Below, one piece after another: positions 5,331-33,357 of a stretch of DNA of 33,357 nucleotides. The stretch comes from a virus. The stretch covers positions 1 to 33,357 of IMG/VR virus record IMGVR_UViG_3300047496_000109; one strand, 5' to 3'. The notes below the pieces were generated by a model. The model had not been told where the DNA came from. It ran no database searches and was given only the letters and a program-made list of their open reading frames with translations. A program made the position numbers and the translations under genes. The stretch's first letter is position 1. Every line of letters begins with the position of its first letter.

Positions 5331-6257
5331 ATGTCAGTCAATCAATTACCCGTACAAAATAACAACGTGGTTAGCGTACTACAACAGACTTTATACCCTG
5401 AGGCCACGACACAAGAAGCTGAGATGATTATTTCTTATTGCCGCGCACGTAAAATCGACCCGATGTTAAAGCCTGTTCATTTAGTTCCCATGAATGTGAA
5501 AACAAATAGAAAAGACCCACAGGGAAAATCCATTTATGAATACCGGAATGTGATTATGCCAGGGATTGCACTTTATCGTATTGATGCCTCGCGTACAGGC
5601 CAATACGCAGGGATGTCTGAACCTGAATTTGGCGAAGATGTCACAGAGCAAATAGGGATGAAGAAAATAACCTATCCAAAATGGTGCAAAATTACGGTCA
5701 ATAAATTAATGAATGGACAAGTCTATCAATTTAGCGCCAAAGAATATTGGAAAGAAAACTACGCTACTAAATCACGTACCGATAATTCACCTAATGATGT
5801 ATGGACAAAAAGAGCATATGGACAATTGGCCAAATGTGCCGAAGCCCAGGTATTGCGTAAAGCTTTCCCCGAAGCCGTGCCGCATGAATATACTAAAGAA
5901 GAAATGGAAGGAAAAACATTTCCAGATCACAAACCTATCTTAAACTATGCAAATATTGTTCAAGATAAGGTAACTCAAATATCCCCAGCTATCATTAACG
6001 ATAATACCGTAGATGACCTGCAATTATTGTTTGTCGATTATCTCTATGAAATTAAAAATGCTGACAGTTTGGAAAAATTAAAATCCATTTATGACGAAGT
6101 GAAAGCCAAAAATTTTCATCGTGAACCAGAACTATTTAAAAAGCTGGTCTTGGCCAAGGATGAAAGAAAACTTTACTTTGACCACATCAACGCAGAAAAA
6201 AACATGTTGTCACAACTTGATGCCGTTAATGTGGAAACAGGCGAGGTGTTATCATGA
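5331..6257 (+). CDS. bet: Single-strand annealing protein, RecT/Bet family
   Basis: The 308-aa protein matches the Red-beta/RecT superfamily in the order of its conserved blocks: EAEMIISYCRARKIDPMLKP, the VPM...GKSIYEYRNVIMPGIALYRIDASRTG core, then PNDVWTKRAYGQLAKCAEAQ and LRKAFPE. These proteins form rings on single-stranded DNA and anneal complementary strands, serving recombination and end-to-end joining of replicating phage DNA. GGAG precedes the ATG. The next gene overlaps its stop by four bases (ATGA) and is a Gp157-type protein, the usual partner in such modules. No RecE or lambda-type exonuclease is nearby. The C-terminal 100 residues are divergent and charged. Confidence 0.88.
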   Translation: MSVNQLPVQNNNVVSVLQQTLYPEATTQEAEMIISYCRARKIDPMLKPVHLVPMNVKTNRKDPQGKSIYEYRNVIMPGIALYRIDASRTGQYAGMSEPEFGEDVTEQIGMKKITYPKWCKITVNKLMNGQVYQFSAKEYWKENYATKSRTDNSPNDVWTKRAYGQLAKCAEAQVLRKAFPEAVPHEYTKEEMEGKTFPDHKPILNYANIVQDKVTQISPAIINDNTVDDLQLLFVDYLYEIKNADSLEKLKSIYDEVKAKNFHREPELFKKLVLAKDERKLYFDHINAEKNMLSQLDAVNVETGEVLS

Positions 6258-6748
6258 GTATGCGATTATATGAGTTAGCCAACCAATACCAATTTTTGTT
6301 ATCTGATCTATATGATGACGAGACAGGCGCAGTCAGGATAACTACGCTAGATCAACTTCACAACTTAAACGAGCCTATTGAATCAAAATGTATTAATGTC
6401 GTCAAGGTGTTTAAGGATTTAGAGGCAGAGGCCAAAGCGATTGAAATTGAACGTAAAGCAATGGCTGCACGTGAGAAAGCATTAAAATCACAAGTAGATA
6501 GCCTCAAAGAATATTTACGGTTCAATATGGAAAGATGTGAAATCAATGAAATCAAATGCCCGCAATTTGTGATTAAACTTGCCAATAATCCACCTGCTGT
6601 GGATATTGAATGCGAAAATCTTATTCCTGATGAATATAAGAAAGTAAAAATTGAATTTGATCTAGCACATATGCGCGATGATATGAAGAATGGGGTTGTC
6701 ATCCCAGGGGCAAATCTGATACAAAGAAAATCGGTGAGAATCAAATAA
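6254..6748 (+). CDS. Gp157-like recombination-module protein
   Basis: The 164-aa protein starts MSMRLYELANQYQFLLSDLYD, then has a long charged helix (EAEAKAIEIERKAMAAREKA) and a C-terminal beta-rich part with PQFVIKLANNPPAVDI and IPDEYKKVKIEFD. This is the profile of the Siphovirus Gp157 family, which was first linked to phage resistance in Streptococcus thermophilus and is widespread beside single-strand annealing proteins. The start overlaps the preceding stop, so the two are translationally coupled. Function is not established for the family; a recombination or DNA-protection role is inferred from context. Confidence 0.8.
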   Translation: MSMRLYELANQYQFLLSDLYDDETGAVRITTLDQLHNLNEPIESKCINVVKVFKDLEAEAKAIEIERKAMAAREKALKSQVDSLKEYLRFNMERCEINEIKCPQFVIKLANNPPAVDIECENLIPDEYKKVKIEFDLAHMRDDMKNGVVIPGANLIQRKSVRIK

Positions 6749-7017: not shown

Positions 7018-7497
7018 ATGGAAATATCCATTGCTAACAACAAGCAATTAAATTCAATTAAATGGGAAAATGTCACTTATGATGATAGAACCATAAATAA
7101 AAAGTTAGACTCAGATAGAATCTATATTACGATCCATCATCTTATTTTAAAAAAAAAGAGCAGTAAATTAAAAATCAGGTTTTATTTAGGTAAAGATATA
7201 TTAGATTTATTTAATTTTAAGTTGAATGACAAATTATCTGTGCAAATTTCGCCAGATGGAAAATTAATTAGAATTACTAAATCAATCTCAACGGTAGGAT
7301 TTTTAATACAAATACCAAAAAATAAAAACACTAAGAAAGAAATTAAAGGTAGGACGCCTTATATTAATTGCAGAATAAACAGTAAATATAATTATAGTGA
7401 GCAGAAGAAAAATACAGAAGTCATGTTTGAATTGTTCGATAATAAAACTATATTGATCAATATGACCGATTTTATTAAAGGTAAAAACGATGAGTAA
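7018..7497 (+). CDS. Hypothetical beta-rich protein, 159 aa
   Basis: AGAGGA precedes the ATG. The product is basic and beta-rich. The section LKIRFYLGKDILDLFNFKLN followed by DKLSVQISPDGKLIRITKS looks like a swapped-hairpin or AbrB-like pattern (strand, short helix, GD/ND turn, two strands). That suggests a DNA-binding fold, but I see the resemblance only at pattern level. The second half repeats a similar strand-rich layout (VMFELFDNKTILINMTDF). The next gene starts inside its last codons (overlap of eight bases). Function unknown. Confidence 0.6.
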   Translation: MEISIANNKQLNSIKWENVTYDDRTINKKLDSDRIYITIHHLILKKKSSKLKIRFYLGKDILDLFNFKLNDKLSVQISPDGKLIRITKSISTVGFLIQIPKNKNTKKEIKGRTPYINCRINSKYNYSEQKKNTEVMFELFDNKTILINMTDFIKGKNDE

Positions 7498-7768
7498 AGA
7501 AAAAGAAAACGATCTCATGTTACAAATACACAAAGACATTATGTTTTCTATTTTTAGACATGAGTTTGAAGATTATAAGGTTTTCAATATCATATCTTCA
7601 TCTTTTGCGCTTTCTATCGCTGCATTTTTAATGACATTGCAAATAACGAGTAAAAAGCAAATTGATAATTTTTTAATAACACTAAGGCATGCTATAGATG
7701 ATGTGATTAAAAATAAAGATAAATTTAATATAAAAGAAGTCCATGTGAACAATGAAGTAAAACATTAG
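7490..7768 (+). CDS. Small helical protein, paralogue family member A, 92 aa
   Basis: The start overlaps the preceding gene. After a charged N-terminus comes a hydrophobic helix (FNIISSSFALSIAAFLMTLQ) and a charged C-terminal helix (LITLRHAIDDVIKNKDKF). The layout matches the proteins at 9859, 10197, 11087 and 11349: about 40 polar residues, a Ser/Ala-rich hydrophobic helix, then a charged helix. It is the most divergent of the five. The hydrophobic helix may be a membrane helix or the core of a helical bundle. Function unknown. Confidence 0.6.
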   Translation: MSKEKENDLMLQIHKDIMFSIFRHEFEDYKVFNIISSSFALSIAAFLMTLQITSKKQIDNFLITLRHAIDDVIKNKDKFNIKEVHVNNEVKH

Positions 7769-7801
7769 GATGGCAGTAAATGAAAGCGGGAGTTAAATTA
7801 A

Positions 7802-7972
7802 ATGAATAAATTATCTAAATTCCAGGTAATTATCATTATTTTCTTATTAGGATTTATAGCCAGTCATCTTCCTAATATAAATAATTCTCAACGCGGATAT
7901 ATTTATGGTTTTATCTTGGGTTATTTTATCGTTGAAATATTTAATATTTATTACGGATTAAATTATGACTGA
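7802..7972 (+). CDS. Small two-span membrane protein, 56 aa
   Basis: GGGAG lies upstream of the ATG at 7802. The product has two hydrophobic segments, FQVIIIIFLLGFIAS and IYGFILGYFIVEIFNIYYG, joined by a polar loop (HLPNINNSQRG). It overlaps the next small membrane gene by eight bases. Three small two-span proteins follow each other here, which suggests a set acting in the inner membrane. Function unknown; superinfection exclusion or lysis control are possible. Confidence 0.55.
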   Translation: MNKLSKFQVIIIIFLLGFIASHLPNINNSQRGYIYGFILGYFIVEIFNIYYGLNYD

Positions 7973-8147
7973 AATGCAAGGTTGGATAATTATCGGATTG
8001 TTATTTTACGAATTAGCTTATGCAATTAAGCGTGATAGATATTACGATAAGAAAGAGAATTCTAATTGCCCTGCTGTTTATATATTAACATTAGCTTCGA
8101 TATTATGCTTTATAAAAGTCATTATAATAGGCATTTTTCATCATTAA
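7965..8147 (+). CDS. Small two-span membrane protein, 60 aa
   Basis: Starts inside the 3' end of the previous gene, which suggests coupled translation. Two hydrophobic stretches, GWIIIGLLFYELAYAI and AVYILTLASILCFIKVIIIG, flank a basic loop (KRDRYYDKKENS), so both ends would be on the same side of the membrane, probably outside if the loop is cytoplasmic. No motif that I recognise. Function unknown. Confidence 0.55.
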   Translation: MTEMQGWIIIGLLFYELAYAIKRDRYYDKKENSNCPAVYILTLASILCFIKVIIIGIFHH

Positions 8148-8156
8148 GGAATAACC

Positions 8157-8315
8157 ATGGCTAATTCTAATAATCATTATGTTTTAATTTTAGCCTTATT
8201 AATCATTATACAAATTAATTTCGAGGATAACAAACTCATTCAGGCGATCACTTCATTAAGCGCTGCTATTTGGATTAGTTATGGTATCTATTTAATGTTA
8301 AAACATAGAATGTAA
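8157..8315 (+). CDS. Small two-span membrane protein, 52 aa
   Basis: The start is preceded by ATTAAGGAATAACC, an 18-base leader (8143-8160, including the start) that recurs exactly before the gene at 8619. The product holds YVLILALLIIIQI and LSAAIWISYGIYLML as two hydrophobic segments with a short polar link (NFEDNKLIQ). Third of three consecutive small membrane proteins. Function unknown. Confidence 0.5.
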   Translation: MANSNNHYVLILALLIIIQINFEDNKLIQAITSLSAAIWISYGIYLMLKHRM

Positions 8316-8331
8316 TGATAACGAGATAATA

Positions 8332-8616
8332 ATGAATAAATGCTCACACAATCCCGTCGAAACAAAAGGGGCTATTGGTATGTATCATTGTCCAGTATGT
8401 GGCGATATGATTGTTGCTGGTTTTGATCATCCTGATACAGACAAAGAAATTCTAGCTTATGGAAAATATTGTGACAAACGCTATGATGATTTAAAAAAAT
8501 ATATATCTAGTCATCTAGGCGATGGTTTGTTGTCAGTCATTGACTTGATGGAAACTAAACAAGAAGTAAAAGCAGTGTTAATGGAAATATGGCTTAGAGC
8601 GGATATTAAGGAATAA
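8332..8616 (+). CDS. Small zinc-ribbon-like protein, 94 aa
   Basis: Cys4, His6, Cys20 and Cys23 in CSHNP...HCPVCGDMIV form a compact probable zinc site in the first 25 residues, followed by GFDHPD and a helical C-terminal part (LLSVIDLMETKQEVKAVLME). The fold looks like a small zinc ribbon with a helical tail. The leader TAATGATAACGAG recurs before the gene at 9315. Proteins of this general type occur in many gammaproteobacterial phages without known function. Confidence 0.65.
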   Translation: MNKCSHNPVETKGAIGMYHCPVCGDMIVAGFDHPDTDKEILAYGKYCDKRYDDLKKYISSHLGDGLLSVIDLMETKQEVKAVLMEIWLRADIKE

Positions 8617-8618
8617 CC

Positions 8619-9026
8619 ATGGAACTATCAGAACAAGTAGTCAGTCTTGATCTTGCTAAACGATTAAAAGAGCTAGGGGTTAAGCAACATAGTCTGTTTT
8701 ATTTTGTTAAACGCAATAATAAGAATAGATATTCTATTGCTTACTTATCAAAATCATTCATAGATTATAATAATGAGTTTGATGATATTTGCTCCGCATA
8801 CACGACAACTGAATTGGGTGAGTTATTACCAGCAATGATAAACTCTACTCCTTTAGAAATATTGAAAGGATTAAAATTTGGTGATATCCAACCATTATAT
8901 TGCGTTAGATATTATAATGCAGATTTAATAGGTGAGCCTGATAAAAGCATGGCTAATGCGATGGCAAAAATGCTTATTCATTTAATCGAAAATAAATTGA
9001 TGGATATATCTAATGATGGAAAATAA
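8619..9026 (+). CDS. Conserved phage protein of unknown function, 135 aa
   Basis: The pattern LSEQVVSLDLAKRLKELGVK then HSLFYFVKR, a central TTELGELLPAMI block and an end with NAMAKMLIHLIENKLM is one I recognise from many prophages of gammaproteobacteria, where it appears as an uncharacterised conserved protein in early or accessory regions. No catalytic residues stand out. It shares its leader with the gene at 8157. Function unknown. Confidence 0.7.
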   Translation: MELSEQVVSLDLAKRLKELGVKQHSLFYFVKRNNKNRYSIAYLSKSFIDYNNEFDDICSAYTTTELGELLPAMINSTPLEILKGLKFGDIQPLYCVRYYNADLIGEPDKSMANAMAKMLIHLIENKLMDISNDGK

Positions 9027-9297
9027 TTCTGGATCAGCAATCACAATGATAGTTTTTATCTCTGCTGCATTATTGATAGCTTATTGGATTGGTATTACTA
9101 ATCCAAAAGACGCTTATAACGCATTGGATAACATGGGATACAAGAATATAGAAATGACAGGTTATAACTTTTTTGCATGTAGCAAAGATGATTGGTACCA
9201 CACTGGTTTTAAAGCGATCAATCAAAATGGAAAAATTGTGACTGGCACTGTTTGTTCAGGATTATTATTTAAAAATTCAACCGTCAGATTCAACTAA
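9013..9297 (+). CDS. Conserved small phage membrane-anchored protein, 94 aa
   Basis: One N-terminal membrane segment (ITMIVFISAALLIAYWIGI) is followed by a soluble domain with ALDNMGYKNIEMTGYNFFAC, CSKDDWYHTGFKA and VTGTVCSGLLFKNSTVRF. This soluble part matches a family common in Enterobacteriaceae and other prophages as an uncharacterised small protein. Two conserved Cys could form a disulfide, so the domain may face the periplasm. It overlaps the previous gene by 14 bases. Either ATG of a double start (9013 or 9016) may be used. Function unknown. Confidence 0.7.
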   Translation: MMENNSGSAITMIVFISAALLIAYWIGITNPKDAYNALDNMGYKNIEMTGYNFFACSKDDWYHTGFKAINQNGKIVTGTVCSGLLFKNSTVRFN

Positions 9298-9314
9298 TGA
9301 TAACGAGGTAAATT

Positions 9315-9569
9315 ATGATAGAAATAAAATTAATTTATGGTGAGATAATGCCTTGTAGCGGACAGTATGGGGTTCGAGTAACTGCGATTGATAAAGAAAC
9401 GAATAGTACCTGTGATTCTGTTTTTAATACCATTGGCTTTCAACGTATCTCAATTAAAAGAGCCGAAACATTCATTATGGTATTAGAGCAAAATATTAAC
9501 CAATGTATGAAAGGCGTTTTAGGGTTAATTCCAACAATAGAATATCCAAAAATAGGCAAGCCAGAATAA
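9315..9569 (+). CDS. Small hypothetical protein, 84 aa
   Basis: GAGG precedes the ATG. The product looks like a small alpha-beta protein: strands MIEIKLIYGEIMP and GVRVTAIDKETN, then the helix RAETFIMVLEQNINQCMKGV. No recognised motif or membrane segment. A palindromic hairpin lies just after its stop. Function unknown. Confidence 0.55.
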   Translation: MIEIKLIYGEIMPCSGQYGVRVTAIDKETNSTCDSVFNTIGFQRISIKRAETFIMVLEQNINQCMKGVLGLIPTIEYPKIGKPE

Positions 9570-9574
9570 GGTAA

Positions 9575-9592
9575 CGATAAGGCCGCTTATCG
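9575..9592. promoter_or_regulatory. Palindromic hairpin in a 108-base gap
   Basis: CGATAAG (9575-9581) and CTTATCG (9586-9592) pair around GCCG. No T-run follows. The rest of the gap to 9677 holds a short tandem CGTAATA repeat (about 9649-9663) and no convincing promoter. An operator or processing hairpin is possible. Confidence 0.4.
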
Positions 9593-9677
9593 CTATCATG
9601 ATTAGTAAATTGATTGTACAAGTAAAAATGAAGATTAATGTAATATAACGTAATACGTAATACAGGAGTTTAAATTA

Positions 9678-9862
9678 ATGAGTGACAAATTTCGTAAAGT
9701 TTATAAAACGCTTCATTATGTGAAGTTATCAATAAATCAACTGAGATAATAGATTTAACTAATAATATACGTACAAAAGAAATGGATTTAGTCATAGATA
9801 AATTTAATTATATTGTAATTGAGATGTTGGGTGAAATTAGAAGATATAGGGACAATAAATGA
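9678..9862 (+). pseudogene. Frameshifted small gene, possible degenerate paralogue
   Basis: A strong CAGGAG site and ATG at 9678 open a frame that stops after 23 codons (MSDKFRKVYKTLHYV...). In the -1 frame an open stretch continues from the same place to 9862, reading CEVINKSTEIIDLTNNIRTK and ending MDLVIDKFNYIVIEML...EIRRYRDNK. Joined, they give about 61 aa. The end resembles the C-terminal helix of the protein at 10197 (KLLDNVYKEVLAIINHYEKE). A single-base deletion near 9718, or an assembly error there, would explain it. No clear slippery heptamer is present. Confidence 0.5.
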
Positions 9863-10200
9863 AGAAATATTGTGATTACGATGAATGTTTCGTACAAATG
9901 CAGGAACATTATCATATTGATGAGCATACGATCAGATTTAGTAAAGATGATCCACAAGGAAAAAAAATGACAGACGTTGAAAGAATAGAAAAGTTAGGTG
10001 TGAAAATTCAAGAGATAATTTTAAATGAATTTGATCAAAAATCAACAGATCAAGTAATATGTATCATGACATTATTAAGTTCATTAATTTGCTCATATAT
10101 AGATTCATGTGCTAAAGATAATGAACTTAAAATATTAATGATTGATAGGCTAAATAATTTACTAAAAGAAAATATAACGAATAAAGAGGACAGTGAATGA
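9859..10200 (+). CDS. Small helical protein, paralogue family member B, 113 aa
   Basis: The ATG at 9859 overlaps the stop of the frameshifted frame and follows AGGGA. Residues 1-36 are an extra acidic/His N-terminal part absent from its relatives. From Met37 (9967), itself preceded by AAGGA, the product aligns with the other members: charged helix, hydrophobic helix (ICIMTLLSSLICSYIDSC), KDNELK, then charged helix. Two starts may therefore be used, giving 113-aa and 77-aa forms. The next gene overlaps by four bases (ATGA). Function unknown. Confidence 0.65.
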   Translation: MKKYCDYDECFVQMQEHYHIDEHTIRFSKDDPQGKKMTDVERIEKLGVKIQEIILNEFDQKSTDQVICIMTLLSSLICSYIDSCAKDNELKILMIDRLNNLLKENITNKEDSE

Positions 10201-10466
10201 CTAATGAGGAATTAGAAATTAAATGTAAATCTTTAGTGTTAAATCTTAAAGAAGTCATCAATGATAATATAGTAAATCTTTCATGTAAAGAAGGTACTAC
10301 CATTGTTTCATCAACATTAGCATATTTATTGGGTAATTTCATTGAATCTATGATAAAAGAAGATAAATTTAAGAGTAAAATTAAATTACTCGATAATGTT
10401 TATAAAGAAGTATTGGCTATTATTAATCATTATGAAAAAGAAAGGAAACATAAACAATATGATTGA
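10197..10466 (+). CDS. Small helical protein, paralogue family member C, 89 aa
   Basis: Coupled to the previous gene by ATGA with AGAGGA upstream. The second half (TIVSSTLAYLLGNFIESMIK, then EDKF, then KIKLLDNVYKEVLAIINHYE) lines up position by position with member E at 11349 (STAFSYLIADSIDKIIK, DDRF, KKNLLNDIYNSALVMIEDKE). The shared features are a Ser-rich hydrophobic helix, a KxDKF/KxDRF turn and a charged terminal helix ending EKERK. No known family assigned. Function unknown. Confidence 0.68.
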   Translation: MTNEELEIKCKSLVLNLKEVINDNIVNLSCKEGTTIVSSTLAYLLGNFIESMIKEDKFKSKIKLLDNVYKEVLAIINHYEKERKHKQYD

Positions 10467-10602
10467 ATGGATGTTATCCGCTACAATTATGTTAATTATT
10501 GGTGACATTAATCATTTAACAGCTTATCAAGTTATATTAAATATTAATTTATTTGCAATAGTACTTACATTAGATTCAATTAAAAGAAGGTTAAAACCAT
10601 GA
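10459..10602 (+). CDS. Small membrane protein, 47 aa
   Basis: I chose the ATG at 10459, which follows AGGAAA and overlaps the end of the previous gene; a longer frame begins at 10396. The product has two hydrophobic stretches (MLSATIMLIIGDI and VILNINLFAIVLTL) and a basic end (DSIKRRLKP), consistent with one or two membrane spans with the C-terminus inside. The next gene overlaps by four bases (ATGA). Function unknown. Confidence 0.55.
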   Translation: MIEWMLSATIMLIIGDINHLTAYQVILNINLFAIVLTLDSIKRRLKP

Positions 10603-11087
10603 AAAAATTATTAATCTGTTTATTGTTAGCCAATACAACTTATGCGTTTGAAGGGGAAGGCTATAAAGTCCTTAACGAGCATTTCCATAGTACATTTAAA
10701 AACGCTCATATAGAACATCTTAGTAATGCACAGATGAGAGCGTTAGATAAATCTGTTGCCGCCCACGCTTATGATGCCCAGGGGTTAGTAAAAACTAATA
10801 TACAAGTACAATCAACACATAGCGTTTATGTGCTTAATGCGACGCCTTATGTCCAACGTTATCATTATAAATTCGAATTGTCATGCTTACAGCTAGATCA
10901 ATACTATAGCTATGACGTAGAGTTACAACCGCAAGGTCATTTTGGGGATAATAGTAGAAACTTTGGGGATGTGTGGAATGATAGAAACGTACGTTTAAAT
11001 ATAGATGCAACGACTTCATTAGACGGTGATGCGTTTGATTATGCAGCGAGTAACGGCACATTAATTATTACAGGCGGGTTTAATTAA
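10599..11087 (+). CDS. Exported protein with signal peptide, 162 aa
   Basis: A classic Sec signal peptide is visible: MKKLLICLLLANTTYA with probable cleavage after Ala16. There is no lipobox at the cleavage site. The mature part (about 146 aa) starts FEGEGYKVLNEHFHSTFKNA, is rich in His, Tyr and Asn, and has beta-type segments (VKTNIQVQSTHSVYVLN, RYHYKFELSCLQL) and a Gly/Asn-rich end. It is not a tail or lysis protein by position; it sits among paralogues in the early run, coupled to both neighbours (ATGA before, one-base overlap after). A periplasmic or surface role such as superinfection exclusion or a host-phenotype gene is possible. Function unknown. Confidence 0.7.
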   Translation: MKKLLICLLLANTTYAFEGEGYKVLNEHFHSTFKNAHIEHLSNAQMRALDKSVAAHAYDAQGLVKTNIQVQSTHSVYVLNATPYVQRYHYKFELSCLQLDQYYSYDVELQPQGHFGDNSRNFGDVWNDRNVRLNIDATTSLDGDAFDYAASNGTLIITGGFN

Positions 11088-11356
11088 TGGATAATACTGA
11101 CTTAGAATTTTTCAAAAAATCTTCTGAACTATCAATTAAAATAGGCTTATTATTTGATGAATATGTAAACAATAATAATCGTTCAGACTCTTACGCATTA
11201 ATTACTAATTCAATTGCTTCGTCTACTGCGTGTTTTATTCATGCAGCAATTAAGGATGATAAATTTAACATAAAAATAGAAATTGCCAATAGAATACATG
11301 ACATGGTTTTAGATAATTTGAATAAGATTGAAAATAATAGGAGTAAAAATGACTGA
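11087..11356 (+). CDS. Small helical protein, paralogue family member D, 89 aa
   Basis: The start overlaps the previous stop by one base (TAATG). It has the family layout: charged N-terminal helix (DLEFFKKSSELSIKIGLLFD), a Ser/Ala-rich hydrophobic helix (SIASSTACFIHAAI), KDDKF, then a charged helix (KIEIANRIHDMVLDNLNKIE). The KDDKF turn is identical in kind to KEDKF (10197) and KDDRF (11349). Function unknown. Confidence 0.66.
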   Translation: MDNTDLEFFKKSSELSIKIGLLFDEYVNNNNRSDSYALITNSIASSTACFIHAAIKDDKFNIKIEIANRIHDMVLDNLNKIENNRSKND

Positions 11357-11639
11357 TAACAATAAAATAATACATTTAAGTAAAAAATTAATCAAAGAAA
11401 TAGAAGAGGTAATAAGTAAAAATTGTCATTGTCACAATGATTTAACTGTACAAGAATTTGGTATTTCTCTCAGTACCGCTTTTTCATATTTGATTGCTGA
11501 TTCAATAGATAAAATAATAAAAGATGATAGATTTACTGTTAAAAAGAATCTATTAAATGATATTTATAATAGTGCTTTAGTAATGATTGAAGATAAAGAA
11601 AAGGAAAGGAAAAATAATGAAAGCCAAATTGATATATGA
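11349..11639 (+). CDS. Small helical protein, paralogue family member E, 96 aa
   Basis: I chose the ATG at 11349 because TAGGAG precedes it; it overlaps the previous stop by eight bases. The layout is the same as member C, with the extra CHCHND stretch in the N-terminal half that might bind a metal. The hydrophobic helix is ISLSTAFSYLIADSIDKII, then KDDRF, then NLLNDIYNSALVMIEDKEKE. Function unknown. Five copies in one operon point to repeated duplication. Confidence 0.66.
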   Translation: MTDNNKIIHLSKKLIKEIEEVISKNCHCHNDLTVQEFGISLSTAFSYLIADSIDKIIKDDRFTVKKNLLNDIYNSALVMIEDKEKERKNNESQIDI

Positions 11640-11787
11640 ATTACCAGAGGGTGCCGAAGTCGAACGAATAATAATTGCTAATAAAGATAAATTATACATT
11701 CTGGTTAATCACAATAATTCACAAGCTATTTATGAAATTACCGAAGATGGTGATATTAAAGAAAAACTTAACTATGTTTGTCCTTAA
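11617..11787 (+). CDS. Small hypothetical protein, 56 aa
   Basis: I chose the ATG at 11617, preceded by AAGGAAAGG inside the previous gene. The product is a short beta-rich protein (MKAKLIYELPEGAEVERIII, then KLYILVNHNNSQAIYEITED). It is the last gene of the long early run and its 3' end overlaps the convergent membrane-protein gene by 20 bases. Function unknown. Confidence 0.58.
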   Translation: MKAKLIYELPEGAEVERIIIANKDKLYILVNHNNSQAIYEITEDGDIKEKLNYVCP

Positions 11788-12055
11788 AATAAGCGACTAA
11801 TATCAATGTGGCTAATGGTGGGAATGTTGTCATGCATATATCTAATAACTTCGTCCCCGCATTAGGCCTTAGCAAATAAGCAATAATCGTAATCACATAC
11901 AGTATAGCAAGCCCTAGCAAAATCTGTTTGGCGGCGATAAATTTGTCCTTATCGCTGATTTTGCCTATGTTTTCATGTGCTTCGACATCCTTAGTTTCAA
12001 AAGTCTTGACGGTGAAAATATCGTCCAATATATTTTCGCTCCTTTCGTCCTTCAT
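11768..12055 (-). CDS. Two-span membrane protein paired with an RHH protein, 95 aa
   Basis: A cytoplasmic-type acidic N-terminal part (about 40 residues) precedes two hydrophobic segments, ILLGLAILYVITIIAYLL and LLDICMTTFPPLATLILVAY, ending in KDKHS. The start overlaps the RHH gene by four bases (ATGA) and has no ribosome site of its own, so translation is coupled. The pair has its own promoter and opposes the flanking plus-strand runs. Such pairing resembles toxin-antitoxin or addiction units with a membrane-acting toxin, but no known toxin family is recognised. Function unknown. Confidence 0.65.
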   Translation of the reverse strand: MKDERSENILDDIFTVKTFETKDVEAHENIGKISDKDKFIAAKQILLGLAILYVITIIAYLLRPNAGTKLLDICMTTFPPLATLILVAYFKDKHS

Positions 12056-12252
12056 CTAATCAAAATTTTAGTTTCATGCGTTCCTTTGCGTGCAAATAGT
12101 TCGCCTTTGGCTTTGTCTACATAAGCGGCGGTTTTTAATACGGCGATAGCTTTTGATATAATTTCGGCTTTAGTTTTCACGTTATAATGTTTCATTAAGT
12201 CTTTGATTGACTGGCTGGCTTTATTGTCTAGTTCTAACGTAATTTCACTCAT
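12052..12252 (-). CDS. Ribbon-helix-helix protein (antitoxin- or regulator-like), 66 aa
   Basis: Strand ITLELDN, helix ASQSIKDLMKHYNV, turn KTKAEI, helix IISKAIAVLKTAAYVDKAK: the arrangement of a ribbon-helix-helix regulator, with a charged tail. AAAGG precedes the ATG. It heads a two-gene unit with the membrane protein at 11768 and has a likely promoter upstream (12290-12318), so it could repress its own unit, as RHH antitoxins do. It is the third RHH protein in the genome. Confidence 0.72.
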   Translation of the reverse strand: MSEITLELDNKASQSIKDLMKHYNVKTKAEIISKAIAVLKTAAYVDKAKGELFARKGTHETKILIR

Positions 12253-12321: not shown

Positions 12322-12483
12322 TTAATGGTGCTTTTTATGTTTCATCTTTTTAAGCTCTTTATGTTCTTTTTTTTCTTCTTTTTCGTGTTTATGCAATTCA
12401 TGTAATACTTTTTTAGCTTCTTTGTGATGGTGTTCGGCTTTCTTTAAATGGTGCATCGCTTTTTTATGGTGTGAATGTTTCAT
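12322..12483 (-). CDS. His/Lys-rich small protein, 53 aa
   Basis: A clear AAAGGA site lies ten bases before the ATG at 12483. The product has 18 Lys, 15 His and 8 Glu among 53 residues, in patterns like AMHHLKKAEHHHKEAKK and HKHEKEEKKEHKEL, and would form one long charged helix. It could bind metal ions (nickel, zinc, copper), nucleic acid or polyanions. It lies upstream of the RHH pair on the same strand and is divergent from another very basic small protein (12570). Length, start signal and codon-like periodicity favour a real gene, but low complexity lowers confidence. Confidence 0.6.
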   Translation of the reverse strand: MKHSHHKKAMHHLKKAEHHHKEAKKVLHELHKHEKEEKKEHKELKKMKHKKHH

Positions 12484-33089: not shown

Positions 33090-33281
33090 ATGTTAAATAG
33101 AAAAGTTATCGGAATAGTCACCCAAAGTACTGACCCTTATGTTCCATTAAATGAAAAATGCGTAATATGGATAAACAAAAAATATGAAGTATATGGCGTC
33201 CATAGAATATCCGACGGCGCAGGTACTTATTTATTTAGTAGCCATGATCGTAAAAATACATTTTATAAAATAACTGACTAA
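33090..33281 (+). CDS. Small beta-rich hypothetical protein, 63 aa
   Basis: Starts MLNRKVIGIVTQ after GGAG. It has several short strands (VIWINKKYEVYGVHRI, GTYLFSSHD) and looks like a small beta-barrel or SH3-like unit. Its stop at 33281 equals position 51 on the other side of the circular overlap. The gene and the leader before it resemble the neighbours at 32909 and 78. Function unknown. Confidence 0.65.
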   Translation: MLNRKVIGIVTQSTDPYVPLNEKCVIWINKKYEVYGVHRISDGAGTYLFSSHDRKNTFYKITD

Positions 33282-33357
33282 TAAAACTAAACTTGGAGTA
33301 TAGAAAGATGTTAATAAAATTTATAACAAAAACAGATGCCCGCACATTTTATGAAAA
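33231..33357. repeat. Terminal direct repeat, right copy (circular junction)
   Basis: Identical to bases 1-127. It contains the end of the gene at 33090 and the first 50 bases (from 33308) of the gene given at 78-290. One copy should be removed to obtain the 33,230-bp circle. Confidence 0.95.

Follow-up and report, generated by a model that had tools for sequence, protein, structure and literature searches.

Why would a small phage genome carry several look-alike proteins in one operon, and do they form a single family? The initial annotation had proposed that five ORFs, starting at 7490, 9859, 10197, 11087 and 11349, are paralogs of a family that fits no described one, with a frameshifted gene at 9678 as a possible sixth copy, and that their local amplification points to strong selection, for example by variable host defenses or for assembly into a hetero-oligomer. 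All five ORFs are present at these positions with usable start sites, and we refer to them as A to E in order of position.

Genomic context of the array

The window, by which we mean the whole stretch of DNA analyzed, is a 33,357-base IMG/VR record whose opening 20-mer is found again at offset 33,230 and whose closing 20-mer is also present at offset 107. Positions 1-127 and 33231-33357 are apparently identical, as judged from these end 20-mers, and the 127-bp overlap suggests that the window is a complete, circularly closed genome. The large genes (portal, major head protein, scaffold, head closure and terminase) are P22-like, and the genome is probably the complete one of a P22-like podophage. 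The rightward early operon opens with RecT (5331-6257, + strand) and a Siphovirus Gp157 / Gam-like gene (6254-6748, +), followed by roughly 5 kb filled with small AT-rich genes, most of them orphans, that include B to E. We infer that these genes belong to the accessory portion of this operon, "early" being read from gene order alone. The array is broken between C and D by a gene for a hydrophobic, probable membrane protein of 47 aa (10459..10602, +) and another for a 162-aa exported protein with a signal-peptide-like start (10599..11087, +). Right after gene A, positions 7802-8315 encode three successive tiny hydrophobic proteins (56, 60 and 52 aa), a possible membrane-protein cluster.

For comparison with kin phages, we used an alignment of portals to retrieve 220 related contigs from IMG/VR, kept the 80 best, and assembled a sample of loci (L numbers below, followed by positions) from about 100 contigs matched by portal or RecT, plus extra stretches of approximately 30. 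One kin phage encodes a homolog of the exported 162-aa protein (L004:8379). A search for hosts by portal scan of GTDB genomes gave no match, and a major-capsid scan hit just two contigs, both in MAGs and each assigned to a different phylum. These contigs (L151 and L152) are near relatives of the window, with a major capsid 78% identical, in MAGs labelled Planctomycetota and Sulfuricurvum; because both resemble stray phage contigs, the MAG labels give no host.

Membership of the family

Comparison of the predicted products indicates that B, C, D and E almost certainly form one four-member paralogous family. C (10197..10466, +, 89 aa), D (11087..11356, +, 89 aa) and E (11349..11639, +, 96 aa) are similar to each other far above chance in pairwise and profile tests alike, with within-genome E-values of 2.5e-11 (C-E), 1.8e-8 (C-D) and 5.6e-4 (D-E). 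B pairs with D (7e-4) and was the best non-member (E=0.008) when a profile of C, D and E was run against a background of 15,000 sequences; its score was reached by none of 500 layout-preserving shuffles and none of 500 full shuffles. The support for B is weaker than for the other three, but clear, and we assign its product to the family on that similarity. The annotatable ORF (9859-10200) matches the family only from residue 37 on, and the matching 77-aa domain (9967..10200, +) starts at an internal ATG, at 9967, with AAGGA upstream. Start or stop overlaps with neighbors are found for all four genes: the ATG of C overlaps the stop of B, that of D overlaps the stop of the gene before it, and E starts 8 bases inside D, with AGGAG upstream of its ATG. 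Such tight packing argues that the genes are real and translated.

The four copies retain 21-34% identity, in agreement with the proposal that genes of an early accessory operon were amplified locally and diverged. Third codon positions are near the composition expectation, and second codon positions are 53-72% identical versus approximately 34% expected, an excess that is partly a product of the protein-guided alignment. We found no DNA-level repeats between the copies, hence the duplications are old.

The fifth proposed member, A (7490..7768, +), fared differently. Its similarity to B to E had p values of 0.09-0.99 in pairwise tests and about 0.01-0.06 in profile tests, and its score was reached by 11 of 500 shuffles with the CDE profile and by 32 of 500 and 58 of 1000 with the BCDE profile. 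The profile comparison suggested in the initial annotation recovered B and failed for A, whose profile-profile score with C was lower than the reversed-sequence null. We rejected A as a member because the similarity was not clearly above what layout and composition give. A groups instead with the kin-phage proteins L141:7011, L124:10354 and L132:3414, a separate family. In its AlphaFold model, A itself has the same three-helix layout as B to E. A crude layout filter, with settings picked after examples had been seen, passed 3.0% of similar-sized kin genes versus 1.4% of shuffled ones, which makes layout alone weak evidence.

The putative sixth copy is a small gene with a frame interruption (9678..9862, +). 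Its ribosome-binding site is good and the final frame terminates at the start codon of the ORF at 9859, so this is probably a small gene that has been broken. We saw no resemblance to the family either in its pieces or in the read-through (p of at least 0.14; 0.14-0.39 by shuffles); the pieces also lack the hydrophobic middle helix, and we dropped the gene from the set.

Database searches bore out the view that no described family accounts for B to E. The best E-values were 0.013 in Pfam, far below the curated cut-off, and 0.035 among PHROGs. Searches of GenBank phages by tblastn returned nothing for E or A and only chance-level matches for C (best E about 4); D had no match in GenBank plasmids by the same method. 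Scanning IMG/VR with degenerate patterns for C, for D, for E and for the alignment retrieved no relatives, and HMM searches of the kin-phage ORFs in the sampled loci gave no confident one. As far as these searches and those of PDB described below reach, B to E appear to be an orphan family. Its absence from the sampled kin phages also means that it is not a group-wide necessity. The finding, an orphan family plus local gene amplification, is modest and of an ordinary kind.

Predicted fold and proposed role

AlphaFold, run on the four-sequence alignment, modeled C with helices at residues 3-25, 31-54 and 57-88 (mean pLDDT 75, pTM 0.33; low confidence). A low pTM with a fair pLDDT fits a protein that requires a partner and equally fits a shallow alignment. 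From this model, a three-helix fold is very likely for B to E. The single-protein structure prediction that the initial annotation had also suggested yielded three helices in both A and C, at low confidence and with no PDB counterpart: C had no profile match in PDB and, as a low-confidence model, no significant fold match; fold searches with both models gave no significant match; and the family model matched no known counter-defense fold. Conservation among B to E peaks where helix 2 ends and in the turn that follows, K-(D/E)-(D/N)-x-(F/L), and is lowest in the loop between helices 1 and 2.

The hydrophobic helix raises the possibility that B to E are small membrane-associated proteins that insert it for superinfection exclusion or membrane disturbance. 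Hydrophobic or exported neighbors (7802, 7965, 8157, 9013, 10459 and 10599) would suit such a role, as would the best 19-residue hydropathy of A (1.84) and B (1.81). However, the usual threshold for a membrane helix is about 1.6, and a helix above it is not common to the members: B is borderline, and C (1.22), D (1.35) and E (1.12) fall below. In these last three, polar or charged residues also lie within the helix or at its end. Hence, we consider membrane insertion very unlikely.

The reading that we prefer, tentatively and by analogy, is that B to E are small three-helix proteins, duplicated locally, each of which binds a different host or defense target early in infection. Each would be mostly soluble, the hairpin of helices 2 and 3 and its conserved turn would form the core of an oligomer, and the variable helix 1-2 loop and the tail would contact the partner. 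The copies would have arisen by repeated local duplication and been kept since each, early in infection, binds its own host or defense target or its own variant of a shared one. Their mode of action would then be like that of the clustered AcrID1 paralogs of rudiviruses, which are early, small and diversified inhibitors. That the proteins oligomerize is, in our estimation, an evenly balanced proposition; that their role is directed at the host or its defenses is plausible, though short of probable. The paralogy, the tight operon, the position after RecT and Gp157 in an orphan-rich stretch, the three helices, the conservation pattern, the low hydropathy of helix 2 in C, D and E, the excess identity at second codon positions and the AcrID1 precedent all argue for this preferred reading. 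Against it stand the lack of an annotated relative or a counter-defense fold match, the low confidence of a model built from four sequences, and the absence of the family from the sampled kin phages.

Some of the same features would be expected if B to E were subunits of a single hetero-oligomer with one job, such as a mixed helical bundle or ring: the genes share one operon and overlap, the helix 2-3 core is common to the proteins, and all four copies are intact. Yet unrelated membrane and exported genes break the array, and none of the four is present in the sampled kin phages. We find this arrangement unlikely.

Two known systems serve as comparators for host- or defense-directed proteins, the AcrID1 arrays coming closest to the pattern of the window. 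In four rudiviruses, 26 out of 35 AcrID1 homologs are clustered (PMC11065993). Like B to E, the AcrID1 clusters of Sulfolobus rudiviruses are made of small early viral proteins in several diverged copies close together, and this trait of clustered, diverged paralogs in one genome is found in the window. The rudiviruses are, however, archaeal viruses, and the likeness drawn here is one of gene pattern. The anti-CBASS sponge Acb2 (PMC12043709) is a small all-helical phage protein with an N-terminal helix and two antiparallel helices. It shares with B to E the small size, the all-helical composition and the three helices, and is oligomeric, as B to E may be. Its first helix, in contrast to that of B to E, is short, and Acb2 is not known to occur in local arrays. 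Acb2 acts as a hexamer that binds cyclic nucleotides. The solved Acb2 structures gave no profile match to B to E and no significant fold match to the low-confidence model.

For a genome of about 33 kb, keeping one orphan gene in four diverged versions is a sizeable outlay, and arrays of this sort have marked counter-defense families in other viruses. B to E and their kin-phage counterparts thus offer a small, ready candidate set for counter-defense screens. Should they be unrelated to defense, they would still document the local amplification of an orphan protein.

Small-gene amplification in kin phages

Amplification of small genes recurs in this phage group. Approximately 20 of 33 related genomes contained one or more pairs of similar small genes, a count in which a few of the pairs may reflect split genes or overlapping contig ends, and the largest duplicated set among the 33 genomes examined is the four-member set of the window. 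This frequency, and the broken gene adjoining the array at 9678, would be consistent with B to E being retained duplicates without a special role, the noise of amplification in a region where small genes come and go. However, the four copies are intact and deeply diverged, their starts overlap and the hydrophobic pattern is preserved, all of which suggests constraint, and we regard noise as an improbable explanation.

Other orphan families in the kin loci encode helical proteins of 90-115 aa with a similar layout. The L040 family (L040:6791-7063, L120:15107-15391, L145:8416-8709 and L004:10017-10289) comprises orphans of approximately 90 aa that, like B to E, have this layout and lie outside the conserved structural genes; the L004 gene lies after RecT and a Gp157-like gene, an order also seen in the window. 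The homology of the L040 family to B to E is no more than suggestive. Another related phage carries a tandem triplet of diverged helical orphans of approximately 100 aa (L101:3646-4575), similar to B to E in its arrangement and different in its location between terminase and portal and in that only one of its three proteins scores with the B-E profile.

Could all of these proteins, A to E and the many kin-phage orphans, belong to one ancient and fast-evolving three-helix superfamily? The AlphaFold models of A and C have the same layout, C matched a merged profile of A and the L040 family (E=0.0026, a score reached by none of 500 shuffles), and the L040 protein and one L101 protein scored above nearly all shuffles with the B-E profile. 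The links are, however, non-reciprocal: two of the three L101 proteins score at chance, as do most proteins of the L040 family, the tests of A described above were marginal or below the null, and many profile pairs were tried. We therefore consider a superfamily rather unlikely, and rejected the superfamily profiles from merged families because they produced only isolated, non-reciprocal links. A weak match of one kin protein to PHROG_1739 did not generalize either. An even broader scenario, in which this clade of P22-like environmental podophages keeps such a superfamily and repeatedly amplifies it (B to E, the L101 triplet, and the L040 and A types) in different genomes to supply a diversifying set of counter-defense or host-targeting inhibitors, is in our view a long shot.

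One kin phage also carries another repeated small-gene family, with Cys/His pairs close to the C-terminus that are reminiscent of a zinc ribbon (L155:8088-8303, 8511-8747 and 11055-11282). Downstream of the array, on the minus strand of the window, an overlapping gene pair (11768-12055, 95 aa with hydrophobic segments, and 12052-12252, 66 aa) is conserved, the two genes being adjacent in the kin phages L037 and L039 as well. Also on this strand, positions 12322-12483 encode a 53-aa protein made nearly entirely of His, Lys, Glu and Leu/Ala, and a similar His/Lys-rich protein is encoded in a kin phage (L039:4759-4926).
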